This document shows, in pieces, positions 49,951 through 62,652 of a DNA stretch of 64,000 bases. The first letter of the stretch is position 1. The number at the start of each line of letters is the position of its first letter. Both the position numbers and the translations under genes were made by a program. This DNA is from an uncultured Prevotellaceae bacterium. GTDB lineage: Bacteria > Bacteroidota > Bacteroidia > Bacteroidales > Muribaculaceae. The DNA is taken from assembly GCA_900317835.1 (NCBI GenBank), contig ONIL01000011.1, forward strand, positions 62,001 to 126,000. Direction: 5' to 3'. The notes beneath the pieces are model-generated. The model made no database searches and was not told the origin of the DNA. It worked only from the letters and a program-made list of their open reading frames with translations.

Positions 49951-52900
49951 TCAGGTGCCGCCTAGGATGATGTTGATGACAGCATTGATGTCGGCGATGT
50001 TGATTTCATCGTCACCGTTCACGTCGGCAGCGTCGATGCCACCATTTCCGCCCAAAATGATGCCAATGACGGCGTTCACATCAGCAATGTTGACCTCAAG
50101 GTCACGATTCACGTCTCCCATAATGATATCTTCCACAATCCGCCCGAAATAGGGGTACCAGTTCTCGTCGGCTTGGTAGTCGTCAACTGTTCCCTGTAGC
50201 ACATGAAGCGTACGGCCAGAATAGTCATAATTGTCATTTACAGCAAACAGCTGATTCTCACTCGTTACTTTTGAGAGATCGGTAATGTAGCTATACACAT
50301 TCGTCAGACCGCTGCATCCAGCGAACGCACTGATGCCGATGGCGGTGACCGAGTTGGGGATGACTAAGCTCGTCAGGCCAGTGCAACCATAGAGCACACC
50401 ATAACCGATAGAGGTAACCGAGTTGGGGATGATTATGTTCGTCAGGCCAGTACAATTATAGAACGCCAAGTAGCCGATGGCGGTGACCGAGTTGGGGATG
50501 ATTACGCTCGTCAGGCCAGTGCAATTATAGAACACACTATTGCCGATGGAAGTGACCGAGCTGGGGATGATTACGCTCGTCAGGCCAGTGCAATTATAGA
50601 ACACACCATTGCCGATGGAAGTGACTGAGTTGGGGATGATTACGCTCGTCAGGCCAGTGCAACCATTGAACGCCATGTTGCCTATGGTGGTGACCGAGTT
50701 GCCGATAGTTACGCTTGTCAAGCCATCGCAGTAACCGAACGCTCCTTCGCCGATGATGGTGACCGAATTGGGGATGATGATGCTCGTCAGGCCAGTGCAA
50801 TTATAGAACGCCCTGTTGCCGATGGTGGTGACCGAGTTGGGGATGACCGTATTTTGGCAACCTATCATCAATGTATTACTTGCCGTCTCGATGATGGCGT
50901 TACAATTATTGCGTGAATCGTATTTTGGATTCCAACTATTCACTGCGATGCTCATTAGTCCTGCGCAGCCTTCGAACGCCATGGTACCGATGGCGGTGAC
51001 CGAATTTGGAATAGTCAAGCTCGTCAGTCCGCTGCAACCCTGGAATGCGCTGTTACCGATGGCTGTGACCGAATTAGGTATGGTCAAGCTCGTCAGGCCA
51101 CGGCAACCTTGGAATGCGCTGTTACCGATGGTGGTGATCGAATTAGGAATGGTCACACTCGTCAGGCCAGTGCAGTCTTGGAACGCATTATCCTCGATGG
51201 CGGTGACCGAGTTGGGGATGGAAATGCTCGTCAGACTGTAGCAGCCCAGGAACGCAGATACACCAATGGAAGTAACCGAATTAGGGATAATCACGCTCGT
51301 TAGCCCATAGCAGCCCCTGAAAGCACCTTTACCGATGGATGTGACAGAGTTAGGGATGATCATGCTTGTCAGGCTGTAGCAGTTCTCGAACGCAGATATA
51401 CCGATAGAAGTGACAGTGTTGGGGATGGTCACGCTCGTCAAACTGTAGCAGCCACGGAACACAGCGACATCAATCAAGTCAACTGAGTTAGGGATGGTCA
51501 CGCTCGTCAGGCTATAGCAGTTCCAGAACGCATGTTGGCCTATGTGAGTGACTGAGTTGGGGATAGTCACGCTCGTCAGCCCGCGGAAACCTTCAAACGC
51601 AAAACCAGCGATACGTAACGTGCCGTCTTTTACTATAATGCTTGTCCCATCAGGGATTGTGCCTTTGTACTTATAAGCAATCTGTCCGACATATATAAGT
51701 CCATCGGGTTGGTTATCAAACCATGCAGTACCTTTGAACGCGTCTCGGCCGATTTCAGTGACGGAACTTGGGATTTCGATGCTTGCCAAAGCGCTACAGT
51801 AACCGAACGCCTGTTCGCCGATGGCTGTGACCGAATTGGGAATAACCACGCTCGTCAAGCCAGTGCAGCCCACAAAAGCGCCTCGGCCAATTCTAGAGAG
51901 GCCTGTAAAGAACCTTAATTCATTGAAAGATGTGATATCGCGATTGCCATTGAACACGCCGTTAAGTGTGGTCACTAAAGCTGCTTCGGCTTCACTCAAT
52001 TCACCATCGCTATCAAAATCCCAATATTGAACACAAAGTGCTTTAACATTGGCATCGGCAAAACTGATAATGGGAGAATCGATAGGTTTTTGAGGTTTGG
52101 GAAAGGCATTGATGAGAGCTTCTTGCCTCTGATTATATCCCGATGAGTCTCCAGTGGGGTCTAGTGCAGTGAGCAGGAAATATCCATCGCAATAACCATC
52201 CCATCCCCAATTAATATGAAAGAAGCCGTCTCCATCATAGCCATCGCACACAAACGCATGTCCGGAACTGTTGTTTCCGCCACAGTAGAATATTGGCCTT
52301 GAATGTCGCAACTCATTATATATCATGTTGTTCCATTCGTCGTCAGACGAAAAATAGCTTCGGCTCTCTAATGATGTCCCATTATTATAATTGAAGTATG
52401 ATTTTAATGCAAAAGGGACATTTGCTGAAGCTGCACCAGAGCCTCCATTATATTTATCAGCATAGTCCATCTGAACCGAGGCGCCACAATACTTCATCAG
52501 ATTGGCTACGGCCTCTTTTTGTCGAACAGTCTCATAACCGTGATAATAATCAATCATGCCATCCCAATCAATAAAAGCTCCAGCTGGAATCGCGTCAACG
52601 CTTATTTGTTGGGAGCCGCTTCCAAAATTCCATCTCCGGTTACAGGTATATGCAGGAATGGTAGCTGTTGTCTGGTTTACTGAATTACTGCGATGATAAT
52701 ACATCACCTGAGCCATAGCCGTGGCCACGCACCCGGTTACGCATTTACCGTATCCGAAGAAGTCTGGACAATTCAGATTATAGGGATAATCCTGTCCCCA
52801 CATTGTTGTCAATAACGGAGAAATGGGAGCAAGACCCGAGGTCAATCCAGATTGATGGGACGAACGGAGCCCCTTCTCTTGCATGAATTGGATTTGCCGT

Positions 52901-53232
52901 TCATATTCCTCCAACCAACCCTTCATGTTCTCGGGCAGGCTGTCTGTGTCCATGTAACCCGAATCGGCATAACCGAGGATCGCTGGAGCGCAGTCATCGC
53001 CCGACGCGATGACATAACCCTCGTTGTTACCAATGTTAAACACATAGTAACTCGCTGTCGATGATGATCGTGACGGGGCATGACGCAAGGCTGACGTGTC
53101 AACACTCTTGCCTTTACTCTCCATAAAAGTCAAAGCGTTGTGTTGTGCTTGCTGTGGCGTTATTGGATTTGCTGCGGCTGTGGCTGACAGCAGTGCCAAC
53201 AACAGGATGACAGATGTAATTAGGTTTTTCAT
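49951..53232 (-). CDS. Secreted C10 (streptopain-type) protease fused to LRR_5 repeats and a dockerin-like tail
   Basis: 1093 residues in five parts. Signal peptide (MKNLITSVILLLALLSATAA). A Spi-like propeptide (~22-130) with YYVFNIGNNEGYVIASGDD. A C10 cysteine protease: catalytic Cys in CVTGCVATAMAQVMYYH, catalytic His in SSGHAFVCDGYDGDGFFHI, followed by NWGWDGYCDGYFLL. A single EF-hand loop DFDSDGELSEAE (~420). About twenty LRR_5 repeats of 23 residues. A duplicated F-hand tail (GDVNRDLEVNIADVNAVIGI, ADVNGDDEINIADINAVINI). A start 33 codons earlier lies upstream of the TATCTTTG box (53270-53277). The LRRs may target the protease to host or bacterial surfaces (inference). Confidence 0.92.
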   Translation of the reverse strand: MKNLITSVILLLALLSATAAANPITPQQAQHNALTFMESKGKSVDTSALRHAPSRSSSTASYYVFNIGNNEGYVIASGDDCAPAILGYADSGYMDTDSLPENMKGWLEEYERQIQFMQEKGLRSSHQSGLTSGLAPISPLLTTMWGQDYPYNLNCPDFFGYGKCVTGCVATAMAQVMYYHRSNSVNQTTATIPAYTCNRRWNFGSGSQQISVDAIPAGAFIDWDGMIDYYHGYETVRQKEAVANLMKYCGASVQMDYADKYNGGSGAASANVPFALKSYFNYNNGTSLESRSYFSSDDEWNNMIYNELRHSRPIFYCGGNNSSGHAFVCDGYDGDGFFHINWGWDGYCDGYFLLTALDPTGDSSGYNQRQEALINAFPKPQKPIDSPIISFADANVKALCVQYWDFDSDGELSEAEAALVTTLNGVFNGNRDITSFNELRFFTGLSRIGRGAFVGCTGLTSVVIPNSVTAIGEQAFGYCSALASIEIPSSVTEIGRDAFKGTAWFDNQPDGLIYVGQIAYKYKGTIPDGTSIIVKDGTLRIAGFAFEGFRGLTSVTIPNSVTHIGQHAFWNCYSLTSVTIPNSVDLIDVAVFRGCYSLTSVTIPNTVTSIGISAFENCYSLTSMIIPNSVTSIGKGAFRGCYGLTSVIIPNSVTSIGVSAFLGCYSLTSISIPNSVTAIEDNAFQDCTGLTSVTIPNSITTIGNSAFQGCRGLTSLTIPNSVTAIGNSAFQGCSGLTSLTIPNSVTAIGTMAFEGCAGLMSIAVNSWNPKYDSRNNCNAIIETASNTLMIGCQNTVIPNSVTTIGNRAFYNCTGLTSIIIPNSVTIIGEGAFGYCDGLTSVTIGNSVTTIGNMAFNGCTGLTSVIIPNSVTSIGNGVFYNCTGLTSVIIPSSVTSIGNSVFYNCTGLTSVIIPNSVTAIGYLAFYNCTGLTNIIIPNSVTSIGYGVLYGCTGLTSLVIPNSVTAIGISAFAGCSGLTNVYSYITDLSKVTSENQLFAVNDNYDYSGRTLHVLQGTVDDYQADENWYPYFGRIVEDIIMGDVNRDLEVNIADVNAVIGIILGGNGGIDAADVNGDDEINIADINAVINIILGGT

Positions 53233-53269
53233 CTTCGGTTTGGTTATTTCGTGTTGTTGATTGCTGTCG

Positions 53270-53277
53270 CAAAGATA
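53270..53277 (-). promoter_or_regulatory. -7 box of the C10-LRR protease gene
   Basis: TATCTTTG on the minus strand, 37 nt before ATG 53232; it excludes the longer start at 53331. Confidence 0.7.
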
Positions 53278-53390
53278 AGTAAAGCCCTGAAAGAAAACAA
53301 GACTTTCACCAACTAGAAAGCCAATCGTCAAGAAAAATAACTAAAAGTGTCAAAATAATAGACACTAAGCAGCCCCTGTTCAGAAAAACA

Positions 53391-53753: not shown

Positions 53754-56031
53754 CTAATTCTGGGTGCCGCTCAGGATGATGTCGATGATGGCGTTGATGT
53801 CGGTGATGCTGATTTCTCCATCACCGTTCACGTCGGCAGCCGAAGTGCTACCATTTCCGCCCAAGATGATGTTGATGACGGCATTTACATCAGCAATAGT
53901 GACCTCAAGGTCACGATTCACATCGCCCATAATGATATCTTCCACAATATGTCCGAAATACCAATACCATTTCACGTCAGCCCGATAGGCATCAGCCGTC
54001 CCCTGCAGCACATGCAGCGTACGACCAGAGTAATCAGCATCATCCAAATGGAATAGTCGATACCCGCTCAATACTCTCGAGAGGTCAGCAATGAAGCAAT
54101 ACACATCCGTCAGCCTTGTGCAGCCAGAGAATGCTCCGTGACTGATATGAGTTACCGAGTTGGGGATGTCGATGCTGGTCAGTCCAGTGCAGCCAAAGAA
54201 TGCACCGTTACCGATATAAGTTACCGAGTTAGGGATGTCGATGCTGGTCAACCCTGTGCAGCCAAAGAATGCCGATGGACCGATAGAAATTACCGAGTTG
54301 GGAATGACGATGCTAGTCAGCCCCCTGCAGTCATAGAACGCATAGTCTGCTATGCCTAATGTTCCTTCTTTTAAAGCGATACTTGTGCCGCTTGGCATCG
54401 TGCCCTTATACATGTAAGCGACCATGCCGGCATAGACCAATCCGGCTGGCTGGTTATTGTACCATGCTGTCTGATAGAACGCCTGTTGACCGATAGCAGT
54501 TACCGAGTTGGGGATGACGATGCTGGTCAGCCCTGTGCAGCCGTAGAACGTAAAGTCTTCGATATAAGTTACCGAGTTGGGGATGTCGATGCTGGTCAGT
54601 CCTGTGCAGCCGTAGAACGCCCCGTAACCAATAGAAGTTACCGAATTGGGGATGTCGATATCGGTCAGTACCGATAGAAGTTACCGTGTTGGGGATAATC
54701 GTGTTCTTGCAGCCAAAAATTAAAGTATTATCGGCGGTCTCAATAATTGCATTGCAGTTGTTGCGCGAATCAAATCTTGGATTGCCACTTTCTACCACTA
54801 TGCTGGTCAGTCCAGTGCAGCCATCGAACGCATCGTAACCAATCTCAGTCACCGAGTTAGGAATATTGATGCTGGTCAGCCCTGTGCACCAATAGAATGC
54901 ATAGTCACCGATGGAGGTGACGGAATTGGGGATAATCGTGTTTTTGCAACCGCCAATCAATGTGTTGGTCGCTGTTTCGATAATGGCGTTGCTGTTATTG
55001 CGAGAATCGTATTTTGGATTATCGCTAGCCACTGAGATGCTTGCAAGGCTGGTGCAGCCAGTGAACACCCCATCGCCAATGGAAGTGACGGAGTTGGGGA
55101 TGTTGATGGCGGTCAGGCTGGTGCAGCCAGTGAACGCTTTGCCTGCAATTCCAGTGGTTCCTTCTTTTAGTGTGATAGTTGCACCCTCAGTCATGGTGCC
55201 TTTATATTTGTAAGCGACCAATCCCGCATAGACCAATCCGCCTGGTTGGTTGTTATACCAAGCGGTGCCAGAGAACGCATCGTCGCCGATGGAAGTGACG
55301 GAGTTGGGGATGCTGATGTTGGCCAGGCCAGAGCAGCCATCGAACGCATCGTCGCCAATGGAGGTGACGGAGTTGGGGATGTTGATGGCGGTCAGGCCTG
55401 GGCAATGTCCGAACGCCCAGGTGTCGATGGTTGTTACTGAGTTTGGGATGTCGATGGTGGTTAGGCTATCGAATCCGTAGAAAGCTAATTCACCGATCAC
55501 AGTTACCGAGTTGGGGATAATCGTGTTTTTGCAACCGCCAATCAACGTGTTGGTCGCTGTTTCAATAATGGCGTTGCTGTTATTGCGAGAATCGTATTTT
55601 GGATTATCGCTAGCCACTGAGATGCTTGCTAGGCTGTTGCAGTCATTGAACGCCCCATTGCCAATGGAAGTGACAGAGTTGGGGATGTTGATGTCGGTCA
55701 GGCTGGCGCAGCCGTTGAATGCATCGTCGCCGATGGAGGTGACGGAGTTGGGGATGTTGACGGAGGTCAGCCCGCAGCAATAGAACGCCAATTGACCGAT
55801 AGAAGAAACTGAGTAGGTGGTTCCGTTGTAGGTAACGGTGGTTGGGATAGTCACCGAGCCGGAGTAATCATTGTTTAAGATACTTCTACCCCTATAGGTT
55901 ACTTCGACTTCATCGCTACTGAGTCTATTGTAATAGATGCCATCGACCTTGAAGTCGTGGGCTGTGGCGAGTGCGGGCAACAGGAGGGCCAGCACCATTA
56001 CGGAAAAGCGGAATAGTTGTTTAATTTTCAT
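53754..56031 (-). pseudogene. BspA-like LRR_5 surface protein, frameshifted
   Basis: One gene split into two frames. The 5' part (56031 to about 54670) has signal peptide MKIKQLFRFSVMVLALLLPALATA and LRR_5 repeats interspersed with YNNQPGGLVYAG-type spacers. Near 54670 the frame is lost inside a repeat and translation would run to a stop at 54454 through nonsense (RHPQFGNFYW). The correct frame resumes as LTDIDIPNSVTSIG and continues to 53754, with further repeats and an F-hand dockerin-like tail nearly identical to that of the upstream C10-LRR gene. Comparison with the neighbouring unit shows a 26-nt loss. An internal methionine at 54440 could start a short secreted-signal-less fragment. A sequencing or assembly error in repeats is the main alternative. 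Confidence 0.8.
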
Positions 56032-56358: not shown

Positions 56359-56381
56359 GTCTGTAATTTTACAGAGGCATA

Positions 56382-56453
56382 TGGGGGAAAACGACCAACG
56401 AGAAAGCTGAAAAGTCCCCCAAAAGGGTATGCGCAGCGGCTGTAATTTTGCAA
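56382..56453 (+). promoter_or_regulatory. Promoter cassette copy A (integrase)
   Basis: About 72 bp, nearly identical to 57966-58046 and 58081-58162. It carries ggggga ... tccccc arms able to pair across 27 nt, then aaaagggtatgcgcagcggc and the -7 box TAATTTTG (56443-56450). No TTG at -33, suggesting an activator or repressor acts on the arms. The integrase ATG is 28 nt downstream. Copy A lacks the leading aggtccccag of copies B and C. Confidence 0.75.
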
Positions 56454-56477
56454 CGTTTATTTAACATACATAATAAT

Positions 56478-57833
56478 ATGGCTAGTACAAAATTTGAGAT
56501 TTCAAAGAAGGATCGGAATGGCACATCCGAACTTATCGTTCGGTTCTGCTATGATCGCAGGCATTCGTATCGCCTGCACACGAACATCTGGGTACCACAA
56601 ACTGCCTGGAACACCACTAAGGGCAAACTCGTCATCCCTCGCATGCACGGTAAGGAGCATAATCAGCTCTCCCAACAGCAGGCACAGATTGACGAATTGG
56701 CTAGTTTCCTCAAGTCCGAATGCATTACTGCCCCTGACTCGGCAGACAAGGACTACTGGATTAAAAAGATTCTCGAGTTCCACAAGATGAACGCGCCACA
56801 ACCAGACTCATCGAGTAACAATAGCGATGAGAGCCAGAATCCGGGGATGGATACAATCGAAGCCTTCCGCGCATTCATCAAGGCAAAAAGCGCTAACAAC
56901 AAGTGCGAGCCCCACATGGACGTGACTATGCGCACGGTCAAGAGATTCATGCTGTATATCAAGCGGAACTTACGACTTAATGAATGGACACGTACAGATC
57001 TCGCTGACCTTCAATCTTTCCTCCAGATTGAGCACACCTTCTTCGAGAAGGGTCAGTGCAAGAAGAAGTATCAGCACATCTATGACATCGAACCCGTTTC
57101 CACCCCTCCTATGGTGCGAGGTGGAAACACTATTTATTCCATTATGAAGAGATTCAGGATCATGTTCAACTGGTGTGTGAAAACGGGTCTGGTAGACAAA
57201 AGTCCGTTTCAAGCATTCCAGTTGAGCGGATGCGTCTATGGCACCCCGTTCTACATGACCATCGATGAGTTGAATCATCTTTATAACTATGACTTCTCCA
57301 TGCGCCCCAAGTTGGCCATTCAGCGCGATATCTTTGTACTGCAAAGCAATCTCGGCATGCGCGTCGGTGACTTCTACAACTTGACAACCGCCAACCTCGT
57401 GAATGGTGCCATCGAGTACATCCCAGGCAAGACGCTTCACGATACTGGAGCCGTAGTGCGCGTACCGCTCACCGAGCGTGCCAAGGAGATTATCAGTCGC
57501 TATAGCACCACGGCAAACAGGTTATCCTTAATGCCGTTCATCTGCCCACAGAAGTATAATGAGGCCATCAAAGAGATGCTCAAGCTAGCAGGAATTGACC
57601 GAGTTGTCACCACCTTGAATCCAAGGACACGCCAGGAGGAACAGCATCCAATCTGGGAGAAGGCCTCATCCCACATGGCTAGACGCAACTTCATCGGCAA
57701 CTTATATGCCACGGTGCAAGACCCATCGTTAATCTCTTCCATGACGGGGCACAGGCCAGGAAGCCGGGCTTTCGAGAGATACCGTGCTATCCATGACGAT
57801 ATCAAGAAACCCATCCTCAAGATCTTCGATTAA
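56478..57833 (+). CDS. Tyrosine recombinase (phage-type integrase)
   Basis: 451 residues: an N-terminal arm-type DNA-binding region, a SAM-like core-binding domain (~125-225) and the catalytic domain. Catalytic residues: Arg295 in SNLGMRVGDFY, His399 and Arg402 in HMARRNF, His425 in TGHRPGS and Tyr435 in FERYRAI; all are present, so it should be active. ATG 56478 follows the promoter cassette; a start ten codons earlier falls inside the -7 box and is rejected. Together with the excisionase-like gene it defines an integrative element of the Bacteroidetes type. Confidence 0.93.
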   Translation: MASTKFEISKKDRNGTSELIVRFCYDRRHSYRLHTNIWVPQTAWNTTKGKLVIPRMHGKEHNQLSQQQAQIDELASFLKSECITAPDSADKDYWIKKILEFHKMNAPQPDSSSNNSDESQNPGMDTIEAFRAFIKAKSANNKCEPHMDVTMRTVKRFMLYIKRNLRLNEWTRTDLADLQSFLQIEHTFFEKGQCKKKYQHIYDIEPVSTPPMVRGGNTIYSIMKRFRIMFNWCVKTGLVDKSPFQAFQLSGCVYGTPFYMTIDELNHLYNYDFSMRPKLAIQRDIFVLQSNLGMRVGDFYNLTTANLVNGAIEYIPGKTLHDTGAVVRVPLTERAKEIISRYSTTANRLSLMPFICPQKYNEAIKEMLKLAGIDRVVTTLNPRTRQEEQHPIWEKASSHMARRNFIGNLYATVQDPSLISSMTGHRPGSRAFERYRAIHDDIKKPILKIFD

Positions 57834-57857
57834 TCGTCACGCCAGCAAAGGGTTCTA

Positions 57858-57900
57858 CTGGGGGAAATCACATTACCAAATATGTGATTCTTCCCCCAGT
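57858..57900. terminator. Large hairpin downstream of the integrase
   Basis: Stem actgggggaaatcacat / atgtgattcttcccccagt with one bulge and a ~7-nt loop. Its outer arm repeats the ccagtggggg core of the promoter cassettes. It lacks a long T-run, so it may be a protein-binding site as well as a terminator. Confidence 0.7.
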
Positions 57901-57965
57901 TCTATTTTGCCGAATAGACTTCCTTTGCAGTCCGATTTGAGGCGACCCATCTGCGTCGTGGTCAT

Positions 57966-58046
57966 AGGTCCCCAGTGGGGGAAAATGAAGTTCGAGAAAG
58001 CTGAAAAGTCCCCCAAAAGGGTATGCGCAGCGGCTGTAATTTTGCA
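57966..58046 (+). promoter_or_regulatory. Promoter cassette copy B
   Basis: 81 bp, in tandem with copy C at a 115-bp period. Carries the aggtccccag-tgggggaaaa leader, both C/G arms and TAATTTTG, but differs in the middle (atgaagttcg for cgaccaacg). No gene begins after it before copy C, so it may serve as an extra operator or upstream start. Confidence 0.7.
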
Positions 58047-58080
58047 GTCCAGCTTGTGCGACCAACCGGCCCCGTGGCAA

Positions 58081-58162
58081 AGGTCCCCAGTGGGGGAAAA
58101 CGACCAACGAGAAAGCTGAAAAGTCCCCCAAAAGGGTATGCGCAGCGGCTGTAATTTTGCAA
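58081..58162 (+). promoter_or_regulatory. Promoter cassette copy C (excisionase-like gene)
   Basis: 82 bp, identical to copy A over the shared ~70 bp. The -7 box is TAATTTTG at 58152-58159; the ATG at 58168 is only 8 nt beyond, so the transcript is probably leaderless. Confidence 0.75.
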
Positions 58163-58167
58163 TCGAT

Positions 58168-58470
58168 ATGAGGAATGACATCAACATAGCAGATGAGTTT
58201 GCTACCCTGGTTGCCGCCAAGGTGGTCGAGATGCTCGAAGAGAGAGGTTTGGTTATGGCAGCTCCTGCACCCAAGTCAAAGCAGGAGAAGGAGCAGTCCA
58301 CCACCCTCTACTCTGTTGACGAGGTGTGCCAGCGATTGAAGATCAGCAAAGCCACGCTCTACCGTCACCGCGACCTTGGGTACATCAAACCGTCATGCCA
58401 TGTTGGGAGGTCACCGAGGTTTTCGGATGAGGACATAGCGAAATACTTGTCCAATTTCGATGATGAGTAA
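58168..58470 (+). CDS. HTH_17 excisionase-like DNA-binding protein
   Basis: 100 residues. N-terminal amphipathic helix (ADEFATLVAAKVVEMLEE), a linker, and a C-terminal winged HTH (about 52-95: LYSVDEVCQRLKISKATLYR, then GYIKPSCHVGRSPRFSDEDI), the HTH_17/excisionase family. It likely directs integrase towards excision or represses the shared promoter cassettes. A start ten codons upstream overlaps the -7 box and is rejected. Confidence 0.9.
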   Translation: MRNDINIADEFATLVAAKVVEMLEERGLVMAAPAPKSKQEKEQSTTLYSVDEVCQRLKISKATLYRHRDLGYIKPSCHVGRSPRFSDEDIAKYLSNFDDE

Positions 58471-58798
58471 TGGGCAACCATTACAACGACCTCACGGCTC
58501 AATGAGCCAAGGGCAAGCTACCGGCCCTACCCTAACGGCAGCAAGCGCTCTTTGACATCGCGGGTTCCGACTACAAAATCGGCTGGGTTATGGATGGCGT
58601 TCCCCCTGTAGTAAGCGAACGCGTTCAATCAACGGCGTTGGACATCATCCAACGCCACTATTTAAATATTATGATGAACATTAAATGTTTTGTTAGCGCC
58701 AGACATGCCGGTGGTGTGGCTCGCGCAGGTTGGGAAGCACTCTACCTCAGTGAGTTCAAGATGAGAAAAGTAGCGTATGCAACTAAACTGTTAAGACA
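58471..58798. other. Non-coding stretch with a perfect hairpin
   Basis: 328 bp between the HTH gene and the LRR gene. It contains ggcgttgg / ccaacgcc (58634-58641 / 58649-58656). A frame from 58590 (72 codons) overlaps the LRR start by 10 nt but has no recognisable content and is not called. Could hold the LRR promoter; no clear TAnnTTTG seen. Confidence 0.55.
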
Positions 58799-59776
58799 AT
58801 GGTACTAAGATTCAAGGCCATTAAAACGATTGCGCCCAAGCAGTTCTCGGGCAGGAATGACATAAAATCAGTGTTCATTCCCAACACGGTAACTAGCATT
58901 GGTGAGAATGCGTTCATGGACTGTCAATACTTGGACAACGTGAGTATTCCTAACTCGGTGACCAGCATCGGTGACGGGGCATTTTGTGGCTGTTATCGAC
59001 TGACTAAAGTGAATATTCCCGACTCGGTGACCAGCATCGGTGACGGGGCATTTTGTGACTGCCTTATCCTACCTGAGGTAGAGATTCCAAAATCGGTCAC
59101 CAGTTTGGGAGATGATATGTTTGCAGGCTGCCAGTATTTAACTCGGGTAAATATTAACGCATCTGCTAATCGAATAGGTGAGAGGGCTTTCCAATGTTGT
59201 TATAGGTTACAGGAAGTGAATATTTCTAATTCGGTTAAAATCATCGATTACTGGGCGTTCTGCGAATGTCATGAACTAAAGGTATTATCTATTCCTAACT
59301 CAGTTACCCGGATTGAGGACAAAGCGTTTGATAGCAGTGGGTTGACCAGTCTGCATATTCCTGACTCAGTTACCTACATCGGTCCACAGGCATTCACAAA
59401 ATGCAGGCAACTGACTAAGGTTCGACTTCCTCAGAAGATTAATATCATCAATTCCTTTACATTCTCTTATTGCAATAGTTTGACCGACATCGTTATCCCA
59501 GAATCGGTTCAAGACATCGAAGAAGGTACGTTCTATGAATGCAGTAGTTTGACTAGCATCATCATCCCCGAATCGGTTCACAATATCGCCAAAGATGTGT
59601 TCATTGGATGCAGTAGTTTGCAGGTTATCACTTTTAATGGCTTGACCAAAATAGAAAATGCAGGAGTTTTTGAAGGCTGCACTTCGTTAGAGGCCATTAA
59701 GGTACCATACCAGTACTGGAGCCATTATGCATACATGCTGCCTGATGAACTGTTGGATATACTGATTGGCTACTAG
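58799..59776 (+). CDS. LRR_5 repeat protein without signal peptide
   Basis: 325 residues, about thirteen 23-residue LRR_5 repeats from residue ~20 to ~305 (IPNSVTSIGDGAFCGCYRLT-type), ending in LPDELLDILIGY. The N-terminus MVLRFKAIKTIAPKQFSG is not a signal peptide and an in-frame stop lies at 58784, so the protein should stay in the cytoplasm, unlike the other LRR proteins here. It has no dockerin tail. Repeats are more diverged from one another than in the surface proteins. Neighbour on the right (after 174 bp) is a Z1 helicase. A sensor or scaffold role is inference only. Confidence 0.75.
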   Translation: MVLRFKAIKTIAPKQFSGRNDIKSVFIPNTVTSIGENAFMDCQYLDNVSIPNSVTSIGDGAFCGCYRLTKVNIPDSVTSIGDGAFCDCLILPEVEIPKSVTSLGDDMFAGCQYLTRVNINASANRIGERAFQCCYRLQEVNISNSVKIIDYWAFCECHELKVLSIPNSVTRIEDKAFDSSGLTSLHIPDSVTYIGPQAFTKCRQLTKVRLPQKINIINSFTFSYCNSLTDIVIPESVQDIEEGTFYECSSLTSIIIPESVHNIAKDVFIGCSSLQVITFNGLTKIENAGVFEGCTSLEAIKVPYQYWSHYAYMLPDELLDILIGY

Positions 59777-59950
59777 TTACCATACGGCCACGTGCCGACA
59801 ACAACGGGTGGTCGCTGCCCGTCCAAGAAGTAGCGGCGAAACCAAGCTCGATGCGGAGCAACACTATCACGGGCGCGTCGCGCATCCGACAACCCCAACA
59901 ATATTAAGTGAATATGGAAAGAATTATTTGTTTTAATAACAGTAGTTTAT
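59777..59950. other. Non-coding stretch with a possible gene fragment
   Basis: On the minus strand 59845-59885 would read DAPVIVLLRIE, resembling the last residues (APCVNATILLRIEQ) of the gene at the right edge; the 15-mer gctcgatgcggagca is shared. AT-rich from 59895 on, probably the promoter of the Z1 gene. Confidence 0.4.
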
Positions 59951-62215
59951 ATGGCTAAAAGTTATAGCAGAAAGAGTATTGGGGCCTCGTCCCCGTCAGC
60001 TAAGACGGCACGCGTGAAAAAGTCTGCAACCCCTATCTACGACGCGTTACAGGCGAACGCCAAGTATCCGTTAACAGCCGATAAACGCAAGTGTATCGAT
60101 GACACTGTCAGACAGTTACTCGATAATGGACCTCACGCCGAAGACCCCGGCCTGTTGCTGGGATGCGTCCAAGGCGGCAAAACTGACACCTATGAGTACA
60201 TCATTGCCGGGTGCCTTGATCGTGGCTTTGATGTCGTCGTGTTGCTCACTAAGGGAACCAATGCCCTGGCGTCACAGACGCGCAGCAGGTTTGAGAAAGA
60301 CTTCGCTGCTTTCAAGCCGTCCGATAACCTCACCCAAGGGGCTACCGTCGAGATTCATGACATCATGGCGTTGCGCAAGATCGGTCTCGTTGAGGCAAAT
60401 GTCAACAAGACCAAGACCATCATCGTTTGCAAAAAGGAGCACAACAACCTCAATGCGCTGATCAAGCTGTTCAAGGATTACCGGTTCTTGAAGGGCAAGA
60501 AGGTGCTTATTATTGACGATGAGGCCGACTATGCCTCACGCAGCTACAAGACCATCAAGGTCACGAAGAAGGGCCAAGCAGCTAAACGCGTGACCCATGT
60601 GGCCAAAATCGGCGAGCAGATCAACGATTTCCGCAAGCTGTTGAAGTATCATAGGCTATTGCTGGTGACGGCAACGCCTTACAACCTGTTCCTGCAGCCC
60701 GATGGTTCGCTCATCCTGGACGGCAAGTCAATCAAGAGCCTGCGTCCCCGATTCGTCAGCATTGTGCCCATGCATGACCAGTACATTGGCGGCAAGCAGT
60801 ACTTCGTTGACTCTGATGATCCCCAATCGATGTACAGTAACCTGCATCTCCCCATTGATCAAGATACCATCAACCTGCTGAGTGGTGGTCAAGGCAACGA
60901 TGAAGAAATCAGGTTTGCCATTGGGCAGTATCTGATGGGCACTGCTATTCGTCGCATCCAGCAGCGAGCCGACGGCAAGGATTACAAGTCGAGCTTGGTG
61001 ATTCACGTCCAAATCAAGAAGGTCTACCACCAAGGACAGGCTGATATCGTGAACGACATCATACGCGATTTCTCGGCCCACTTTGCAGGGAAATCACTCC
61101 CCCAAGACGTGGAGCAGATGCTGAAACAGGCCTACGACGACTTCACCGAGTCTAACAAGAAGGCCCGCAACCAGAAACTCATCAATGTGCGCGTCCCCAC
61201 TTTCAAGGCGGTGCTCAATGAGGTGAGTGCTATCTTTGCTAATGGCAACTATTGTGTGAGAGTGGTCAACAGCGACAACGACGTAAACGCATTGCTTGAC
61301 CCGGGCACCGGGGAACTCAAGCTCGATGCTGCCGTCAACATATTCGTGGGTGGTAACATCCTTGATCGCGGCATCACCATCAAGAACCTGATAAGCTTCA
61401 TCTACGGTCGCTCGCCCAAGACGTTCCAGCAGGACACCGTCAGCCAGCACCAGCGCATGTTCGGTGCACGTCCCCTTGAGGATATGGCGGTCACTCGCTT
61501 CTATACGCCCCCTCTCATCTACTGCCGACTCAAAACCATCTATGGCCTCGATGAGTACCTGAGGGAGCAGCTGGCCAACGACAGTCCCGTCCAGATTCTT
61601 GGGACCAGCAGCAATATGCGTCCCTGTGCCGGGAGTAAAGTCATGGTTTCGGACATCATTGCGGTAAAGGAGCAGACACGCTACTTCCCAAGAGGTGTCC
61701 AGACCGGCGGCGCGCGCACGATAGGCAAGACCGTCAGGGACATCGACGCTCAACTCGATGCGGCCTTCAAAGCTGGGTCGCCCGACGCCAACGGCTTCAT
61801 CGAGATGAAGGTTGATGATGTCATCGGCATCCTTGAGAAGATCAAGTCAACCTATGTGTATGGTTCCCAGCACAAGAACACCGACTATAAGCTCGAGCCC
61901 GAGGCGCAAATAGCACTGCTCAAGCACTGCTGCAAGGCATCAGGTGGTAAGGTCTGGGTTGCGAGGCGCACTGGCCGTAATGCCAGCCGTACCAAGCAAA
62001 ACGGCGTCTTCACCAATGCTCCCGACAATGGAACTAGTGATCTTGTTCCTGCACGCGCCAAGGCCATCGACAAGCCTGTGGTGATGCTGATTCGCCAAGA
62101 GGGCAAACAAGCCAATGGCTGGAGGGATACTCCCTTCTATTGGCCGGTGTTGCTCACGCCGATGACCACCCAGAGCGCCCTGTTCGCTACTACGGTCAAA
62201 GACAATCTGCCGTGA
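59951..62215 (+). CDS. Z1-domain superfamily-2 helicase-like ATPase
   Basis: 754 residues, no signal peptide. Helicase motif I GCVQGGKT (71-78), motif II DDEAD (189-193), motif III VTATP (239-243), then the C-terminal RecA-like lobe with FVGGNILDRGITIKNL and motif VI QHQRMFGARP, the hallmark of Z1 proteins. Z1 helicases occur in restriction-type systems with MutL/MORC-like ATPases, nucleases and methylases (Iyer, Abhiman and Aravind, 2008, from memory). Here none of those partners is seen; the only close gene is the cytoplasmic LRR protein. Codon use resembles the host. The C-terminal 150 residues are basic. Confidence 0.85.
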   Translation: MAKSYSRKSIGASSPSAKTARVKKSATPIYDALQANAKYPLTADKRKCIDDTVRQLLDNGPHAEDPGLLLGCVQGGKTDTYEYIIAGCLDRGFDVVVLLTKGTNALASQTRSRFEKDFAAFKPSDNLTQGATVEIHDIMALRKIGLVEANVNKTKTIIVCKKEHNNLNALIKLFKDYRFLKGKKVLIIDDEADYASRSYKTIKVTKKGQAAKRVTHVAKIGEQINDFRKLLKYHRLLLVTATPYNLFLQPDGSLILDGKSIKSLRPRFVSIVPMHDQYIGGKQYFVDSDDPQSMYSNLHLPIDQDTINLLSGGQGNDEEIRFAIGQYLMGTAIRRIQQRADGKDYKSSLVIHVQIKKVYHQGQADIVNDIIRDFSAHFAGKSLPQDVEQMLKQAYDDFTESNKKARNQKLINVRVPTFKAVLNEVSAIFANGNYCVRVVNSDNDVNALLDPGTGELKLDAAVNIFVGGNILDRGITIKNLISFIYGRSPKTFQQDTVSQHQRMFGARPLEDMAVTRFYTPPLIYCRLKTIYGLDEYLREQLANDSPVQILGTSSNMRPCAGSKVMVSDIIAVKEQTRYFPRGVQTGGARTIGKTVRDIDAQLDAAFKAGSPDANGFIEMKVDDVIGILEKIKSTYVYGSQHKNTDYKLEPEAQIALLKHCCKASGGKVWVARRTGRNASRTKQNGVFTNAPDNGTSDLVPARAKAIDKPVVMLIRQEGKQANGWRDTPFYWPVLLTPMTTQSALFATTVKDNLP

Positions 62216-62617
62216 TGGCAGCCAAGTGTATAACGATTAATCATATTGTTTCAGGATGTTAGTGTTATATTTCCAACGGCATTATTAAATACTAAAACGA
62301 GAAACTATAAGAAGAGAAACGTCATTTGAGTTTGAGTTTTGAGGAGAATACAAGTAGCGGAGCGGCATGGGTCGCTCTTTTTTTTGCCCTTACGGCTGCT
62401 ATGTGCGGCGGTCAATAGACGGTATTCGTTGGATTCGTGCCAGGCGGCGGGAGCGGTAGCCCACGGCCTTCTACGCCGGTCAGGAGGATGTAGCATCTAT
62501 GAAGTGGATTGGAGTAGTCAGCCAACGCATACTTGTAGCGGTCCTGACGGCATTCATCAAGGACGAGCATCCTATCCTGGACATCACTACTCATTGATTC
62601 GTCTTAATAATGACGAA
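62216..62617. other. Non-coding stretch, possible relic of a C-lectin-type/FISUMP-like domain
   Basis: No credible intact gene. In one plus frame (62339-62632) it reads SLFFLP ... DWSSQ ... YSLIRL, which resembles the scattered consensus of Bacteroidetes FISUMP/DGR-target domains (LFFPAAGYR ... YWSS ... SVRL) with wrong spacing. This is a weak resemblance. Confidence 0.3.
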
Positions 62618-62652
62618 AGCGAGCCTGATTAAGACTCGCTCCCGTTTTTTGA
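62618..62652 (+). terminator. Rho-independent terminator
   Basis: Stem agcgag / ctcgct followed on the plus strand by CCCGTTTTTT, which would end a transcript reaching beyond the Z1 gene. Confidence 0.7.

Follow-up and report, generated by a model that had tools for sequence, protein, structure and literature searches.

A recurrent structured element seems to delimit exchangeable genes in a Bacteroidales-type mobile island

We analyzed a 64,000-nt stretch of contig ONIL01000011.1 from an uncultured Prevotellaceae bacterium (the window; its genome is G000 below), where a gene for a protein with leucine-rich repeats (LRRs) of the LRR_5 family and a DNA motor gene are adjacent in a mobile stretch. 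The initial annotation had read this pair as a possible minimal defence module; the adjacency itself is confirmed, but a fixed two-gene system has become less plausible, as both genes look like exchangeable cassettes in a Bacteroidales-type mobile island. Of greater interest is what lies between the two cassettes: a knotted RNA-like element, not described to date, that recurs in other islands and seems to delimit the exchangeable genes.

The element was found twice in the window (all features are on the + strand unless stated otherwise). The first leader copy (58486..58545), whose core is a predicted hairpin and pseudoknot, scored 37.2 bits with model R2, to whose seed it belonged. The copy between the LRR and motor genes (59778..59905) scored 60.0 bits with model R1, being outside its seed, and 62.4 bits with R2, being inside that seed. 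At Rfam gathering thresholds, seven of the ten island loci asked for (127 kb; three were left out) yielded two tRNAs only, and two E-value searches of Rfam gave sub-threshold matches only (E from 1 to 2.3). The same core element precedes genes of AAA_25-type ATPases in five genomes, including the window's own (L093 8202-8268, G000:C53; L094, L095, L127 and L128), the type being assigned from three of the five proteins.

To locate exchange boundaries, nine pairs of loci, not mutually independent, were profiled in 20-nt windows counted from the first base of P1. The boundary fell at or within the element in seven of the nine, although the mutual resemblance of all elements by itself favours position 0 to some extent. 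In three pairs (G000/G056, and the LRR leaders of G094 and G095 compared with G054 LRR2 and G054 LRR1, respectively) identity was near-random upstream, with 20/20 windows from +20; G000/G084 likewise changed at 0. Leader-level similarity started at 0 in G056/G018 and G094/G049, with near-identity only from about +60 and about +80, respectively. G056 and G054 have the end of a radical-SAM gene in common (96%, 192/200) up to 0, the similarity being lost afterwards. The blastn blocks were consistent, starting at 59784 in both G000 comparisons. In the two remaining pairs, which compare G095 with G054 LRR2 and with G094, the sequences become nearly identical at about +180, within the LRR gene; the G095 gene (L019 842-1759) is chimeric, combining two LRR paralogues that are in tandem in G054. 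On the far side of its integrase gene, G054 also has another array, which is broken (L066 18450-19190: helix-turn-helix gene, radical-SAM fragment, leader and LRR start).

These boundaries, the repetition of the element between cassettes and an integrase gene close by in some islands could also mean that the element acts as DNA, as the site-specific recombination site of an integron-like system rather than an RNA regulator. We consider this unlikely. The boundaries are scattered over the element and one falls inside the LRR gene, as expected of ordinary homologous recombination, and no integrase was seen in the examined stretches of G056, G084, G051 and G018 (a 6-kb contig). In integrons, an attC site lies 3' of every cassette, the last one included. 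Here exchangeable genes with a structured element between them, some arrays having a tyrosine recombinase gene close by, resemble integron cassettes, but the element is 5' of the gene and has a predicted pseudoknot, and in the searched loci R2 gave no match after the final gene of an array. No IntI-type integrase was identified among the domain matches of the window integrase, no IntI model having been run. Where arrays lack a visible integrase, two genes of about 330 codons without a Pfam match occupy the left-end place (L014 5227-6234 and L067 13323-14312). Should the element prove to be a genuine RNA or a recombination site, it would provide a simple rule for the assembly of interchangeable genes in mobile defence islands, the same slot would link a cytoplasmic LRR family with a restriction-type motor, and R1 and R2 would give a sequence handle to further cargo genes without known function.

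Returning to the exchangeable cassettes, the LRR_5 gene (58799..59776) encodes a BspA-type protein of 325 aa. As the initial annotation held, it appears non-secreted: by hydropathy, it lacks the hydrophobic N-terminus expected of exported BspA-type surface proteins. The LRR proteins of the arrays share the repeat family with these but have 282-335 aa, a non-hydrophobic N-terminus and genes in a mobile array. The stretch ahead of the gene (58546..58808) contains what is left of the 5' end of a radical-SAM cassette, with homology to G054 until about 58737, and a 72-aa open reading frame (ORF) of this stretch overlaps the LRR gene start. The motor gene lies at 59951..62215. Among the closest known systems are the N-proteins of CglI/NgoAVII restriction systems (PMC4267653), MORC/paraMORC restriction systems (PMC2292703) and TCS-like GHKL/receiver systems (PMC8011034). 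MZA is also close, but against its MzaC equivalog model the motor reaches 67 bits, the NCBIfam cut-off being 1500.

The promoter cassette reported for the integrase and excisionase-like genes is indeed common to both: an 87-nt promoter-like repeat precedes each (56369..56455, containing TAATTTTG; 57963..58049; and 58078..58164, which extends into the listed excisionase ORF). The first two copies carry what we take, by consensus, to be a -7 box. The tyrosine integrase gene (56448..57833; Arm-DNA-bind_5, SAM_5 and Phage_integrase matches) more likely starts at ATG 56478 than at TTG 56448; the sequence 5' of the gene is conserved across five aligned islands, two of them in G000. For the HTH_17 excisionase-like gene (58138..58470), homologues suggest a start at ATG 58168; its product scored 23.1 bits with the MADS MAD1 helix-turn-helix model, below the cut-off of 80. 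The full TTTG-N17-24-TAnnTTTG promoter was absent from 15 upstream stretches, those of integrase and excisionase included, and the lone TAnnTTTG box occurred 5' of these two genes but, among 13 cargo stretches, in two only; we therefore lean, weakly, towards a single transcript from the excisionase promoter.

A second island of this integrase-excisionase family, with other cargo, is present in G000 (L069 5626-7502, G000:C54), and in G098 (L071 5142-6603) an integrase of the family, beside its excisionase gene, is apparently broken into two ORFs. On the - strand of the window, a BspA-type LRR gene (53754-56031) is apparently split by a frameshift: the repeats at the end of a 525-aa ORF are out of frame, and a 228-aa ORF carries the LRR pattern on, which could be a real split, phase variation or an assembly error. 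Also on the - strand, 49951-53331 encodes a secreted 1126-aa protein in which a Spi inhibitor and a C10 peptidase are combined with LRR_5 repeats and an end resembling a dockerin.
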